Shown: piece after piece, positions 49,216 through 54,882 of the stretch | How the letters are laid out: every line of letters begins with the position of its first letter | Position numbering within the stretch: position 1 is the first letter of the stretch | Source of the DNA: Leisingera thetidis | Lineage (GTDB): Bacteria; Pseudomonadota; Alphaproteobacteria; Rhodobacterales; Rhodobacteraceae | Direction: 5' to 3' | DNA: 64,000 nucleotides | NCBI RefSeq assembly: GCF_025857195.1 | Contig: NZ_CP109787.1 | Span: 2,297,501 to 2,361,500 of the forward strand | Translations under genes and position numbers: made by a program | The notes under the pieces: model-generated | What the model was told of the DNA's origin: nothing | The model's database searches: none | The model's input: only the letters and a program-made list of their open reading frames with translations

Positions 49216-51162
49216 ATGGCCCAAATCTCTCTCACCTTTCCCGATGGCAATGCACGATCCTATGACGCAGGCGTGACCCCTGCGCAGGTGGCCTCCAGCA
49301 TTTCCACCTCGCTGGCCAAGAAGGCCATCTCCGCCACCGTCAACGATCAGCACTGGGACCTGCAGTGGCCGATCGAGAGTGACGCCGCCATCGCCATCCA
49401 CACCATGAAGGACGAGGCCCAGGCCAATGAGCTGATCCGCCACGATCTGGCGCATGTGATGGCCCGCGCGGTGCAGGAAATCTGGCCCGACACCAAGGTC
49501 ACCATCGGCCCGGTGATCGAAAACGGCTGGTACTACGACTTCGACCGCGCCGAACCCTTCACCCCCGAGGACCTCGGCGCCATCGAGAAAAAGATGAAGG
49601 AAATCATCAACAAGCGTGATGAGGTCCGCACCGAGGTGTGGGAGCGCGGCCGCGCGATCCAGCATTACACCGACAACAATGAGCCCTATAAGGTCGAGCT
49701 GATCGAAAGCATCCCGGGCGATGAGCCGCTGCGGATGTACTGGCACGGCGACTGGCAGGACCTGTGCCGCGGCCCGCATCTGCAGCACACCGGCCAGCTG
49801 CCGGGCGATGCCTTCAAGCTGATGTCGATTGCCGGCGCCTACTGGCGCGGCGACTCCTCGCGCCAGATGCTGCAGCGGATCTACGGCGTCGCCTTCACCG
49901 GCAAGGAAAAGCTGAAGGCGCATCTCACCATGCTGGAAGAGGCCGCCAAGCGCGACCACCGCAAGCTCGGCCGCGAGATGGATCTGTTCCACATGCAGGA
50001 AGAGGCGCCGGGCCAGATCTTCTGGCACCCGAACGGCTGGACCGTCTACACCCAGCTGCAGGACTACATGCGCCGCCAGCAGCGCCGCGGCGGCTATGTC
50101 GAGGTGAACACCCCGCAGGTGGTGGACCGCAAGCTGTGGGAACGCTCGGGCCACTGGGACAAGTATCAGGAAAACATGTTCATCGTCGAAGTCGACGAGG
50201 AGCACGCCCGCGAAAAGGCAGTGAACGCGCTGAAGCCGATGAACTGCCCCTGCCACGTGGAGATCTTCAAGCAGGGCCTGAAATCGTACCGCGACCTGCC
50301 GCTGCGCATGGCCGAATTCGGCTCCTGCAACCGCTACGAGCCCTCGGGCGCGCTGCACGGCATCATGCGGGTGCGCGGCTTCACCCAGGATGACGCGCAT
50401 ATCTTCTGCTCGGAAGATCAGATCGAAGCCGAGACCGCCACCTTCATCGACTTCCTGTCGACGATCTACAAGGACCTCGGATTCGAGAAGTTCTCGGTCA
50501 AATTCTCCGACCGCCCGGACACCCGCGCCGGCTCCGATGAGGTCTGGGACAAGGCTGAGGCCGCCCTGCTGTCCGCAACCCGCGCCGCCGGGATCGAGCC
50601 GGAACTGAACCCGGGCGAAGGCGCCTTCTATGGTCCCAAGCTGGAGTTCGTGCTGACCGATGCCATCGGACGCGACTGGCAGTGCGGCACCCACCAGGTC
50701 GACTTTGTTCTGCCGGAACGGCTGGACGCCACCTATATCGGCGCCGACGGCGCCAAGCACCGCCCGGTCATGCTGCACCGCGCCACGCTGGGTTCCTTCG
50801 AGCGCTTCATCGGCATCCTGATCGAGGAACACGCAGGCAAGCTGCCGTTCTGGCTGGCGCCGCGGCAGGTGGTGGTTGCCTCGATCACCTCGGAAGCCGA
50901 TGACTACGTGCAGGAGGTCGTGGCCGCGCTGCAGAAGGCCGGCGTGCGCGCCGAGGCCGACATCCGCAACGAGAAGATCAACTACAAGGTCCGCGAGCAT
51001 TCCGTGGGCAAGGTGCCGGTCATTCTCGCCGTCGGCCACCGCGAGGTGGAGGAACGCACCGTTTCCGTGCGCCGCCTCGGCGAAAAGCAGACCAAGGTAG
51101 AGTCCTTGGAAAATGTTACAAAGGCGCTGGCCACCGAGGCCACCCCGCCGGACCTCCTGTAA
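49216..51162 (+). CDS. thrS: threonyl-tRNA synthetase
   Basis: A 648-residue class II aminoacyl-tRNA synthetase charging tRNA-Thr. Domains in order: TGS (~1-62, [14 protein letters not shown]), editing domain ([16 protein letters not shown] with Hxxx[21 protein letters not shown]), catalytic core ([34 protein letters not shown], motif 2; [18 protein letters not shown], motif 3) and anticodon-binding domain ([20 protein letters not shown]). Start ATG 49216 after GAGGAGCAGCC. A strong terminator follows. Confidence 0.98.
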
Positions 51163-51187
51163 CATTCCGCGCCAAATACAGCTTCAG

Positions 51188-51212
51188 CGGCCCCCACACG
51201 GGGGCCGTTTTG
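51188..51212 (+). terminator. intrinsic terminator after thrS
   Basis: Stem CGGCCCCC / GGGGGCCG, loop ACAC, then TTTTG. Confidence 0.9.
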
Positions 51213-51394
51213 TTTCAGCCCGCGGCAAAGCCCCGCGATTACATGGCTTTGCACCGGGTTTTCCCGGCAGTTTCCGTCACATGTGCTGACGCGGGCGTGA
51301 GACACGGCCTCGTGATTTACACTCAGCAAAACCGCGGGTTAGTGTTTCCTTGTCATCCACGACACCGCATGCATAACCGAAAGGATTTCACGAG

Positions 51395-51700
51395 ATGTCG
51401 AACACTGCAAAATCCCTGGCCGTTGCCAGCGCCGTTGCTGCCGCTTTGACCGCCGCTTCGACCATCCCCGCCGCCGCCGCCACCAAAGAAAAATGCTACG
51501 GCGTGTCGCTGGCAGGCCAGAACGACTGCGCGGCCGGCCCCGGCACCACTTGTGCAGGCACCTCGACCACCGATTACCAGGGCAACGCCTGGACCTTGGT
51601 TGACGCCGGCACCTGCGAAGGCCTGGAACTGCCGGCCATGGCAGACGGCACTGAGCGCAAAGGCTCGCTGGAGCCGCTGGAGCGCGACCAGCCGGCCTAA
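51395..51700 (+). CDS. bufA: bufferin-type RiPP precursor (DUF2282, BufA1-like)
   Basis: A 101-residue precursor: an N-terminal Sec signal peptide (~1-29, hydrophobic [20 protein letters not shown]) followed by a short core with four cysteines at 34, 45, 53 and 74, in the DUF2282 motif [13 protein letters not shown] and TTCAGTS..DYQGNAW, with GTCE at the end. In known bufferins, MNIO enzymes convert core cysteines to thiooxazoles and the exported product binds copper. The following genes are the DUF692 enzyme, DUF2063 partner and a DoxX protein. The start ATG follows AAAGGATTTCACGAG. Confidence 0.92.
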
Positions 51701-51715
51701 GCGCTGTGTGAATTC

Positions 51716-51746
51716 AGGGGCGGGAGTATGAATTCCCGCCCCTTTT
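51716..51746 (+). terminator. attenuator-like hairpin between bufA and bufB
   Basis: Perfect 10-bp stem AGGGGCGGGA / TCCCGCCCCT, short loop, then TTTT. As the same transcript must continue into bufB, this most likely sets a high precursor-to-enzyme ratio. Confidence 0.85.
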
Positions 51747-51768
51747 GCAACCTGAGTCCGGAGTCCCC

Positions 51769-52623
51769 ATGCTTGACGCCGCTGCCCATGAAACCCTGCC
51801 CGCCGCCGCCGGTGTTGGCTACAAGCCGCAGCATTTCACCCGGATCACTGCGGATCCGGGCTGCGTCGAATGGCTAGAAATCCACGCGGAGAACTACATG
51901 GGCGACGGCGGCCGTCCGCTCGCGCAGCTGCGCCGCCTGGCTGAACGCTTTGCCATCTCGGTGCATGGCGTCGGCCTGTCGATCGGCGGCGAAGGGCCGC
52001 TGGATGCGGATCACCTCGCCCGGCTTAAGCATCTGGTTGGCTGGCTGAACCCCGCCAGCTTCTCCGAACATTTGGCCTGGTCCACCCATGACAGCCACTT
52101 TTACAACGACCTGCTGCCGCTGCCCTGCACGGATGCCAGCCTGCAGCGGATCTGCGATCACATCGGCGAACTTCAAGACACCATCGGCCGCCGGATGCTG
52201 CTGGAAAACCCCTCCAGCTATCTCGCCTTTGCCGAAAGCACCTGGTCCGAACCGGAGTTTCTGGCTGAAATTTCCCGCCGCACCGGCTGCGGGCTGCTGC
52301 TGGACGTGAACAACGTGTTTGTCTCGGCCGCCAACCTGGATTTTTCGCCCCAAGGCTACATCGACGCCTTCCCGCTGGCGAACGTCGGCGAAATCCACCT
52401 CGGCGGCCATGACGCGGATGAGGACGATGACGGCCGCCCGCTGCTGATCGACAGCCACGGGCGCGCGGTTGCGGACCCGGTCTGGGCACTGCTGGATTAC
52501 ACGCTGGCCAAATCCGGCCCCAGGCCAGTGCTCATCGAATGGGACAACGCCGTGCCGGACTGGGTGGTGCTGGAGGCCGAAGCCGCCCGCGCTGCAGCCG
52601 CGCTGGAGCGCATTCCGGCATGA
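51769..52623 (+). CDS. bufB: DUF692/MNIO (multinuclear non-haem iron) RiPP-modifying enzyme BufB
   Basis: A 284-residue TIM-barrel MNIO enzyme. Metal ligand regions are visible: EIHAENYMG, SVHGVGLSIGG (His), FSEHLAWSTHD (Glu/His), LLENPSSYL (Glu, Asn), GLLLDVNNVFVSAAN (Asp), GEIHLGGHD (His) and IDSHG (His). These bind two or three iron ions that oxidise cysteine residues of the precursor. It is encoded directly after the DUF2282 precursor and overlaps bufC by 4 bp (ATGA). The start ATG 51769 is the first in frame with a plausible purine leader. Confidence 0.93.
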   Translation: MLDAAAHETLPAAAGVGYKPQHFTRITADPGCVEWLEIHAENYMGDGGRPLAQLRRLAERFAISVHGVGLSIGGEGPLDADHLARLKHLVGWLNPASFSEHLAWSTHDSHFYNDLLPLPCTDASLQRICDHIGELQDTIGRRMLLENPSSYLAFAESTWSEPEFLAEISRRTGCGLLLDVNNVFVSAANLDFSPQGYIDAFPLANVGEIHLGGHDADEDDDGRPLLIDSHGRAVADPVWALLDYTLAKSGPRPVLIEWDNAVPDWVVLEAEAARAAAALERIPA

Positions 52624-53375
52624 GCGTCAGCCAGGCAGAGTTCGCCCGCGCCCTGATGGATGCGGGCCAGGCGGTGCCGGACGGGCTGGTGGATCATCAG
52701 GCCCGGCCTGCAGGCCGCCGCTTCAGCGTCTACCGCAACAATGTCGCCGTCTCATTGACCGAGGCGATGCACAGCGCCTTTCCGGTGATTGCCAAGCTCT
52801 TGGGCAAGCAGAACATGGACGGCCTTGCCGGCCTCTACCTGCGCCGGCACCCGCCGTCCTCACCGCTGATGATGTTCTACGGCGAGCACTTCCCGGCCTT
52901 TTTGGAGGGTATGGAGCAGCTGAACCACCTCGGCTATCTCGGTGATGTGGCAAGGCTGGAGCTGGCCCTGCGCCGTGCCTACCACGCCGCCGACGCCGCC
53001 CCGATTCCGCCGGAAACGCTTGGCGCGCTGCCACCGGATGCGCTGCTGGACACCAGTCTGACGCTGGCGCCGGCGCTGCAGGTGCTGCGCTCGCCCTGGC
53101 CCATTCACGGCCTGTGGCGCTACAACACCGAAGACGGCGCGCCCAAGCCCCGGGCCGAAGCACAGGACGTGCTGATCACCCGCCCCGAATTCGACCCCAT
53201 TCCCCAGCTGCTGCCGCCTGCAGGCGCGGTCTGGATCCGCGCCCTGATGGGGGGCGCCACCATCGGCGCTGCCCTGGAACAGGCCGCCGAAGAAGACGAA
53301 ACCTTCGACCTGGGTGCCACCCTGGCCCTGCTGCTGCAGGGTGGCGCGATCACAGGACTGGACAGCAAAAGGTAA
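52620..53375 (+). CDS. bufC: DUF2063 partner protein BufC
   Basis: A 251-residue protein with an N-terminal DUF2063 domain: FARALMDAGQAVPDGLVDHQ, FSVYRNNVAVSLTEAMHSAF, FPVIAKLLG, MMFYGEHFPAFLEGMEQLNH and DVARLELALRRAYHAADAAP are all typical. DUF2063 proteins are the RiPP-recognition partners of MNIO enzymes, delivering the precursor to BufB. The C-terminal half is a winged-helix-like region. It is translationally coupled to bufB, and the DoxX gene follows by 4 bp. Confidence 0.92.
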   Translation: MSVSQAEFARALMDAGQAVPDGLVDHQARPAGRRFSVYRNNVAVSLTEAMHSAFPVIAKLLGKQNMDGLAGLYLRRHPPSSPLMMFYGEHFPAFLEGMEQLNHLGYLGDVARLELALRRAYHAADAAPIPPETLGALPPDALLDTSLTLAPALQVLRSPWPIHGLWRYNTEDGAPKPRAEAQDVLITRPEFDPIPQLLPPAGAVWIRALMGGATIGAALEQAAEEDETFDLGATLALLLQGGAITGLDSKR

Positions 53376-53379
53376 GACC

Positions 53380-53943
53380 ATGCACGCACTTGTCTCCATT
53401 CACAACGCAGTCTTCGGCCAGGTGGAACGGGCCGGCAGTTGGCTGCTGCCGCTGGCCGCGCGCTTTGTCTTCGCGTCCACGCTGCTGTTCTATTTCTGGA
53501 ACTCCGGCCTGACCAAGCTGGGCAGCGGCTTCCGCGGCCTGTTCAGCCCCTCGATCGGCGCCTACAGCCAGATCTTTCCGAAACAGCTGGAGGCCGCGGG
53601 CTATGACGTTTCCCAGTTCAGCTTTTTCCATAAACTGGTGGTTCTTGCCGGCACCTATGCCGAATTCATCCTGCCGCTGCTGATCGTGATCGGCTTGGCT
53701 GCCCGCCTTGCCTCGCTCGGCATGATCGGCTTTGTCGCCGTGCAGTCGCTGACCGACGTCTACGGCCATGGCGCCACCGATGACAAGACGCTCGGCGCCC
53801 TGTTCGACCGTTTCCCCGATGCGGTGATCCTCGACCAGCGCCTGTTCTGGGTCTTCCTGCTGGCGGTTCTGGTGATCAAGGGCGCAGGTGCCCTGTCCGT
53901 CGACGCCCTGCTGCGCCGCCGGATGGAGCCTGTTGCCGCCTGA
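53380..53943 (+). CDS. DoxX-family membrane protein of the bufferin operon
   Basis: A 187-residue polytopic membrane protein of the DoxX family, with hydrophobic helices at ~22-42, ~88-110, ~112-128 and ~150-170. DoxX/MauE proteins frequently accompany DUF692/DUF2063 pairs and may provide electrons or assist export or copper handling; the role here is inferred from linkage. Start ATG 53380, 4 bp after bufC. A terminator follows. Confidence 0.9.
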   Translation: MHALVSIHNAVFGQVERAGSWLLPLAARFVFASTLLFYFWNSGLTKLGSGFRGLFSPSIGAYSQIFPKQLEAAGYDVSQFSFFHKLVVLAGTYAEFILPLLIVIGLAARLASLGMIGFVAVQSLTDVYGHGATDDKTLGALFDRFPDAVILDQRLFWVFLLAVLVIKGAGALSVDALLRRRMEPVAA

Positions 53944-54014: not shown

Positions 54015-54389
54015 TCAGAAATGCGCCTTGGGCTCATCCGGCCGGCCCGCCGCCAGCGCCATCAGCCCGGCGGTTGCAGCAAAGCTGATCGGGAAGATGG
54101 TAAAGACATTGAAGCCAAAACCCGCATACATCCCCGCCGCCGAGCCCAGCAGCAGCACACCGCCCCAAAGGGCGCGCGCCCGCGCCATCGCCCCGCCGGC
54201 AATCGCCAGCATTGGCGACAGCACCGACAGAAGCCGCAGCTGTTCAACGTTCTCGACCTGCTCGGCCAACCCCTCAAGCTCGCCGAAATGCTCCACCGCG
54301 GCGGTGTAGCCATAGCCGAAAAAACCAACGATCATTCCGAAAATCCCGGCAATGATCCCCAGAACCAGGGCCGCGTTGCGCATCCTCAA
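54015..54389 (-). CDS. small multi-pass membrane protein (DUF4064-like)
   Basis: A 124-residue protein with four hydrophobic segments (ALVLGIIAGIFGMIVGFFGY; LLSVLSPMLAIAGGAMARAR; LWGGVLLLGSAAGMYAGFGF; FPISFAATAGLMALAAGR). The arrangement resembles DUF4064-like small membrane proteins, but there is no residue signature that gives a function. It is convergent with the bufferin operon and shares its terminator region. Confidence 0.75.
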   Translation of the reverse strand: MRMRNAALVLGIIAGIFGMIVGFFGYGYTAAVEHFGELEGLAEQVENVEQLRLLSVLSPMLAIAGGAMARARALWGGVLLLGSAAGMYAGFGFNVFTIFPISFAATAGLMALAAGRPDEPKAHF

Positions 54390-54425: not shown

Positions 54426-54743
54426 TCACGCAGCCCCAAGAGCCGACTGCACGTTCTGATCCCAACCCAGGAATAATTCCCCGTCACGCTCGATCAGCGG
54501 CCGCTTCATCAGCGCAGGATGCGCGCGCAGCAGCGCCAGCGGTTCACCCGCCCGCTCTTCCTCGCCGAGGCCGCGCCAGGTGGTTGAGCGCGTGTTGACC
54601 AGCTTGGCACCGAATTCGGCATAGGCCGCGGACAGAACCGCCTCTGGCACAGCCTCGGCGCGGATATCGACCAGGACGGAACCCGGCAAGTTTTTCAATG
54701 CCTTACGGCATGCATCACAGTTCTTCAGCCCAAATATCTTCAT
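54426..54743 (-). CDS. ArsC/Spx-family thioredoxin-fold protein
   Basis: A 105-residue protein of the ArsC/Spx/YffB family: MKIFGLKNCDACRKALKNLP carries the CxxC-like redox motif (Cys9, Cys12), followed by VNTRSTTWRGLGEEERAGEP and PALMKRPLIERDGELFLGWD, the conserved YffB block. It may act in redox control rather than arsenate reduction, which needs other Cys residues and arsR partners not seen here. Start at 54743 is the first ATG with the family N-terminus. It is divergent from csp. Confidence 0.88.
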   Translation of the reverse strand: MKIFGLKNCDACRKALKNLPGSVLVDIRAEAVPEAVLSAAYAEFGAKLVNTRSTTWRGLGEEERAGEPLALLRAHPALMKRPLIERDGELFLGWDQNVQSALGAA

Positions 54744-54882
54744 AAATCCCCCTATGTTCCCGGCCGATTTCGCACAATTTATGGTAGAATTCACCAGTTT
54801 CTCTTGATTTTCAGTCAGCCCGTGTAAAACTTGAAGTTGTCCAGCCAAGCCTTGTGCACGTCGGCCAAGGGACGGGCTGGAT

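Follow-up and report, generated by a model that had tools for sequence, protein, structure and literature searches.

The operon at positions 51395-53943 of a 64,000-nucleotide stretch of Leisingera thetidis DNA (contig NZ_CP109787.1, positions 2,297,501 to 2,361,500; here called the window) is a bufferin-1 operon, bufABCD, and its set of genes is unremarkable; the novelty lies in its control. The unusual part of the locus is a pair of tandem palindromes upstream of bufA, found in place of the SigF/NrsF system known from Caulobacter, and it was overlooked by the original prediction made on this DNA. Taken as a whole, we consider it very likely that the locus directs the synthesis of a thiooxazole copper-sequestering peptide and is transcribed from a sigma70-like promoter with tandem palindromes instead of SigF/NrsF.

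A double palindrome in place of SigF/NrsF

We aligned the upstream region of the window with those of 79 relatives, drawn from the best 80 in a scan of GTDB genomes (L062 was dropped, the start being missing from its contig). The majority sequence of the 80 regions reads TnAC-N6-TnACG-N4-YGTGA-N2-CACG-N4-YGTGA, followed about 24 nt on by TAnnnT. The block contains two 14-bp palindromes (NSACG-N4-YGTGA) set 15 bp apart, and the whole element differs from its own reverse complement by 2 mismatches. The block averages 1.34 bits of information per column, compared with 0.5 upstream of it (51190-51276), 0.39 between the block and the -10 (51316-51338) and 0.72 in the bufA leader (51356-51390). The double box is present as a single copy in the window and in the genome; a genome scan allowing up to 3 mismatches returned, besides the true site, two chance-like sites at 3 mismatches, with one for the backwards control. 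An Rfam search returned nothing. Within the titles and abstract openings of the open-licence literature searched, no non-SigF operator of bufferin operons is described; the captophorin study mentions co-occurring transcriptional regulators (PMC13097082).

In Caulobacter vibrioides, the bufferin 1 operon (CC3254-3257; sigF is CC3253 and nrsF is CC3252) has DUF2282, DUF692, DUF2063 and DoxX genes in the same order as here, and is reported to be driven by the extracytoplasmic function (ECF) sigma factor SigF from GTAACC-N16-CGAA and held by NrsF (PMC3511200). It is also reported among 11 genes raised by copper under every tested condition, and a sigF mutant is described as copper-sensitive (PMC8224329). 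Sigma and NrsF genes are among those listed for Buf1 clusters (PMC12452194). The Leisingera locus, in contrast, is without these and has the double palindrome. We found no match to NrsF in this genome and no SigF orthologue, the best match to SigF having an E value of 4.0e-7 at 31% identity. When 60 genomes were searched with SigF, the best match lay between 1e-13 and 1.8e-5 in all 36 genomes without NrsF, none of which has a SigF orthologue, whereas in all 24 NrsF carriers it was no weaker than 4.2e-26 (no weaker than 1.9e-49 for those in the order Rhodobacterales). No promoter resembling GTAACC-N16-CGAA was found near bufA, and a loose form of the pattern has 3 matches in the window, which is chance level.

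Distribution and history of the box

The precursor family is present in 217 of 292 order genomes sampled, every one of which carries the family label of the window, and in 135 of 385 sampled from the class. Allowing one mismatch at most, we found a double box in 108 of the 292 order genomes and the backwards pattern in 4; the box is in 108 of the 217 bufferin carriers, one carrier site (G014) being off-target, and in 0 of the 75 non-carriers. In 81 of 83 genomes, the 83 being those of the 108 with coordinates among the matches listed, the box precedes the DUF2282 match by 152-200 bp. The two exceptions are G014 and G174; in the latter the double box stands between bufA and bufB, not upstream of bufA (L166:5020-5048). 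NrsF scores above cut-off in 34 of the 292 genomes and is lacking from 186 of the 217 sampled carriers. Among the 108 box genomes it is found in 3 (G014 being one), versus 28 of the 109 other carriers; Fisher p values ignore shared ancestry.

Neither NrsF nor a box of at most one mismatch is present in 81 bufferin genomes, and 38 of the 45 of these that were scored (7 + 38) reach at least 10 on a weight matrix built from the 80 regions. Among the 38 further carriers the figure is 32, and the highest score of the reversed control is 2.9. Both the precursor core and its control had been predicted to be specific to this strain, and neither is: the core is near-invariant in 80 aligned precursors of a family found in most of the order genomes, and the element is common to many bufferin-carrying genomes without NrsF. 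Two sites elsewhere were rejected as off-target, G014:C1 and G155:C22, neither being near buf; the second, on a different contig (L163:4996-5045), is an unrelated tandem repeat (15 bp) made up of box-like units (GCACGGAGGCGTGAA). G204 is a true thrS-box-buf locus.

We also compared 30 loci from the order and 30 from the class outside it, taken as the best-scoring precursor matches and not as a random draw; no order locus matched any of the 80 at 95% or above by blastn. A double box is present at 13 of the order loci (NrsF in 1 of 13) and absent from 17 (NrsF in 15 of 17), and a SigF-like promoter is found in 13 of 16 NrsF genomes and in 0 of the 14 others. The class-level loci have no double box, and a SigF-like promoter occurs in 6 of 7 NrsF genomes (the seventh, L147, is almost without upstream sequence) and in 0 of 23 others; the loose SigF pattern is not specific, as it also matches 8 of the 38 NrsF-less loci, where a longer stretch was scanned, with some matches overlapping the box. 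Because of these counts, we regard the double box and SigF/NrsF control as close to mutually exclusive within the order.

The two forms of control nevertheless share a motif. SigF-type bufA promoters often contain a single copy of the double-box palindrome, placed 4-6 nt ahead of the SigF -35 (the GTAAC element). With at least 8 of 10 bases required, 10 of 15 order promoters have this single box (2000 shuffles, which ignore shared ancestry, gave a mean of 0.02 and a maximum of 2); the count is 9 of 14 without L103, whose -35 was placed by hand after the box was seen; GTAAT was allowed for L118. It is present in 2 of 6 SigF-type promoters from the class. Since the same palindrome also sits in SigF-type promoters, the sequences imply a shared bufferin regulator that would bind both promoter types. 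The simplest reading may be one box-binding regulator predating the split, which would use a single box alongside SigF and a pair of boxes where SigF is not involved. A fuller version of this idea could well be right, though we stop just short of calling it probable: an undescribed regulator, older than the order and devoted to bufferin operons, would bind TCACG-N4-CGTGA either as one box just upstream of the SigF -35 or, where sigF and nrsF are absent, as a doubled box at a sigma70-like promoter, the regulator then replacing the dedicated sigma factor. If so, L124 and L127, which have SigF-like promoters inside the double-box lineage, would be natural swaps.

That lineage was recognised in a tree of BufB, made by a quick method with 76 of 81 rows sought and long branches flagged. 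In it, 35 double-box rows fall in one group (Shimodaira-Hasegawa-like approximate likelihood ratio test, SH-aLRT, 92, not starred) together with SigF-type L124 and L127 and the unclassified L109, and 13 order SigF rows form a separate group (SH-aLRT 99, starred). Control mode mostly tracks enzyme lineage in this tree; L109 and L127 have the same genus code and different control modes.

Candidate regulators and rival explanations

In the account that we favour, the operon would be transcribed from its own sigma70-like promoter, with the tandem palindromes directly upstream of the -35 and probably bound by a metal-responsive activator encoded elsewhere, perhaps a response regulator of the OmpR/CopR type. 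By our own comparison, the reported CopR/CusR boxes (CTGACA-N5-GTAAT; AAAATGACAAnnTTGTCATTTT; PMC11195947) share inverted half-sites TnAC ... GTnA with the buf box. The buf box differs in its bases (TCACG-N4-CGTGA) and in being doubled at 15 bp, and it is this half-site resemblance that suggests the candidate regulator class. The genome has 35 CopR-like matches and 11 full-length OmpR-family regulator matches. A scan for the box over about 1.5 kb on each side of the 12 strongest CopR-like matches tied no regulator to it. Likewise, no common regulator was evident in open reading frame (ORF) lists from the thrS-bufA stretches of ten loci and from upstream of the box in seven, and in 12 SigF-type loci the ORFs common to at least three other loci lay only at the buf, sigF and nrsF places, apart from a few overlapping frames. 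One candidate, L088, has box-like repeats just before its start; it adjoins a TctC-like gene and looks like TctD by ORF reading, and was rejected. As the double box occurs once in this genome, no regulon can be read from it. The 29-bp element marking bufferin promoters would be a direct handle on copper sensing in these largely marine bacteria, and appears specific enough to capture the regulator by affinity.

The tandem palindromes might instead be the operator of a repressor relieved by copper. Each box is an inverted repeat, and palindromes 15 bp apart could seat two dimers on opposite faces of the DNA, as a TetR-like protein or another dimer pair might. The site, however, appears to stop just short of the putative weak -35 and to leave the -10 and start free, as is usual for an activator, and the same position recurs in the 10 of 15 SigF-type promoters in which the palindrome precedes the SigF -35 by 4-6 nt; we therefore think a repressor unlikely, while giving it some weight. 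Alternatively, the element could form part of the promoter for another ECF sigma factor. Directly upstream of the double box and buf in L168 are genes for an ECF sigma factor, for EF-hand and Metal_resist proteins and for a small protein that has no Pfam match, and L167, of the same genus (g18), has an ECF match at a like place (G023:C29:110059). Among the loci read, this linkage is confined to one genus and two genomes, and a symmetric element of 29 bp ending about 24 nt before the -10 is unlike an ECF promoter, so we see only a slim chance that this explanation is correct.

That the element belongs to thrS, for instance in processing of its 3' end, is scarcely credible. Although thrS is present upstream inside the fetched stretch in 78 of 80 relatives, the element is found in none of the 75 bufferin-less genomes, lies past the terminator-like hairpin of thrS, and remains linked to bufA in loci with thrS some 1-1.3 kb off (L056, L064, L077) or outside the stretch (L168). 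A different question is whether the operon serves mainly against another metal or stress, such as chromate, cadmium, gold or oxidants, with copper secondary. Caulobacter SigF and its targets are reported to respond to chromate and cadmium (PMC3511200), and a related operon, gig, to gold, silver and copper (PMC8224329); the copper sensitivity of the Caulobacter sigF mutant (PMC8224329) and the reported binding of copper by thiooxazole peptides (PMC13097082) speak for copper, and we judge a primary role elsewhere to be quite unlikely.

Several results nonetheless count against copper-linked control by an activator at the double box, or against parts of the wider account, and should be set beside it. 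No regulator of the box was identified by the searches above. A consensus sigma70 scan found no promoter, and the -35 and -10 are for that reason assigned from conservation alone. Some NrsF-less carriers have weak or shifted boxes, with 6 of the 38 scoring under 10; L109 and L198 have low matrix scores, yet contain shifted or degenerate boxes by eye. Both G062 and G067 have the double box at buf plus SigF/NrsF elsewhere, and of the SigF-type promoters, 5 of the 15 from the order and 4 of the 6 from the class are without the single box. On the protein side, BufC has no match in the PDB by sequence, and the NCBIfam HvfC and HvfX models match BufC and BufD only below their cut-offs, as would be expected of a different subfamily.

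The bufferin genes, their product and neighbours

The gene families, the score of BufB above a bufferin-specific cut-off and the fold of BufC together make the parts list that of a bufferin-1 operon, and the family call of the original prediction is backed by family models, fold and gene order. Its DUF2282 precursor with cysteines at 34, 45, 53 and 74 agrees with both the ORF and the family model, and the MNIO (DUF692), DUF2063 and DoxX partners all score above family cut-offs in the order given. The genes had been described as overlapping, which holds for bufB and bufC (4 nt) and fails for the bufA-bufB and bufC-bufD gaps of 68 and 4 nt (Table 1). The genome has a single DUF2282 gene and a single MNIO gene. 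Many Buf1 clusters, though not all, include a DoxX gene. BufB exceeds the cut-off of the NCBIfam bufferin maturase model (NF050167, 364.4 vs 310) and scores below those of the HvfB, ApyH, MbnB and ChrH models. Its sequence relatives in the PDB are 3bww, TglH and MbnB, and many of its His, Asp, Glu and Asn positions are conserved in at least 80 of 81 alignment rows. An AlphaFold model of BufC, made with 32 sequences, has a mean predicted local distance difference test (pLDDT) of 93.5. By fold it matches TglI of TglHI (8hci, E 1.3e-6; 8hi7, E 3.1e-6) and NGO1945 (3dee, E 3.6e-4), with a weaker match to MbnC (7dz9_C, E 0.47).

Table 1. Features of the buf locus and its upstream region (window positions)
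Feature	Position	Strand	Details
thrS	about 49216-51162		upstream neighbour
Terminator-like hairpin	51186..51209	+	directly after the thrS stop, parting thrS from the buf promoter; a single hit, vs a mean of 2.4 in shuffles of the scanned region; count not significant
Upstream half-site TnAC	51277..51280	+	10 bp ahead of box 1; T 70, A 72, C 74 of 80 sequences
Tandem operator	51287..51315	+	box 1 TGACG-N4-CGTGA, 51287-51300; box 2 ACACG-N4-CGTGA, 51302-51315
Putative weak -35-like stretch TTTACAC	51316..51322	+	17-18 nt ahead of the -10
Putative sigma70-like -10 TAnnnT (TAGTGT)	51340..51345	+	T 73, A 80, T 80 of 80 sequences
bufA, DUF2282 bufferin-1 precursor	51395..51700	+	101 aa; 83.8 bits vs cut-off 22.4
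GC-rich hairpin then TTTT, bufA-bufB gap	51717..51742	+	minimum free energy window z -2.66; terminator scan (wants 5 T) did not report it
bufB, MNIO (DUF692) enzyme, bufferin maturase	51769..52623	+	full-length; 331.8 bits vs cut-off 25; start taken as ATG 51769 (ORF list has TTG 51745)
bufC, DUF2063 partner protein	52620..53375	+	PF09836, 85.2 bits vs cut-off 27.2
bufD, DoxX-family membrane protein	53380..53943	+	PF07681, 25 bits, barely above cut-off 23.6

The operon is not a chance arrangement, since tblastn matched all four of bufA, bufB, bufC and bufD in the same order in 80 of the 80 best relatives. Some copies may not be intact: the bufC match of L080 contains a stop, and contig ends truncate L057 and L062. 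Across all 80 rows of the BufA alignment the four cysteines do not vary, and the surrounding core hardly does. By eye, the BufA N-terminus is typical of a Sec signal, as in the 79 listed relatives, with K6, a hydrophobic run of A, V and L, and PAAAA ahead of TKEKC. In the C-terminal tail, R88, G90, L92, R97 and D98 are invariant in the same alignment, and this stretch (residues 85-101), strongly kept as R-x-G-S-L...R-D, lies beyond the Pfam domain. The tail is possibly a recognition or export feature. Several SigF-type loci have different BufA ends.

The expected product follows from the Buf1 chemistry of relatives, in which the central cysteines are reported to be modified and the outer two joined in a disulfide (PMC12452194). 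BufA would be made with a Sec signal, and BufB with BufC would convert the central C45 and C53 to 5-thiooxazoles in the cytoplasm, each reported as a change of -4 Da (PMC13097082). The peptide would then be exported, its signal cleaved and a C34-C74 disulfide formed, and the product would sequester excess periplasmic copper, with BufD (DoxX) in an accessory role. The captophorins, 5-thiooxazole-containing ribosomally synthesised and post-translationally modified peptides (fontiphorin, oxazolin and gonophorin), are like this system in pairing an MNIO enzyme with a DUF2063 partner, in conversion of cysteine to 5-thiooxazole and in the link to copper; their precursors are reported to carry EGKCG repeats, whereas that of Leisingera is of the DUF2282 kind (PMC13097082). 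BufB is also an MNIO homologue of the enzymes in methanobactin MbnB-MbnC and in TglH-TglI, and BufC folds like TglI and weakly like MbnC, but those systems differ from buf in precursor, product and biological role.

The hairpin in the bufA-bufB gap is possibly a partial terminator or an mRNA stabiliser, and may favour precursor over enzyme mRNA. It recurs with different bases: a stem of at least 6 positions (one mismatch allowed) precedes a T run in 43 of 77 gaps, and 59 of the 77 fold better than base-shuffled copies (z < -2).

Downstream of buf, a small protein without a Pfam match (54015-54389, minus strand) was matched in 66 of 82 loci, which include this genome's own two short loci, one of them among the 66. 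An ArsC-family protein (54430-54800, minus strand; PF03960, 43 bits) was matched beside buf in 75 of the 82. The record of L013, titled Nocardioides marinus, which we take to be the name of an actinomycete, holds a Leisingera-like thrS-buf locus (BufA 95%, BufB 86%), and its label is probably wrong. Finally, bufD is of two divergent types that have seemingly been swapped in place (window 53380-53943; L008:5612-6145; L011:5612-6136). The bufD genes of L008 and L011 are 92% alike and 51-53% alike to those of the window and L003, while their bufB genes are 86-95% alike; a like contrast is seen between L039 and five other Ruegeria-type loci (bufB 85-88%, bufD 53-62%).

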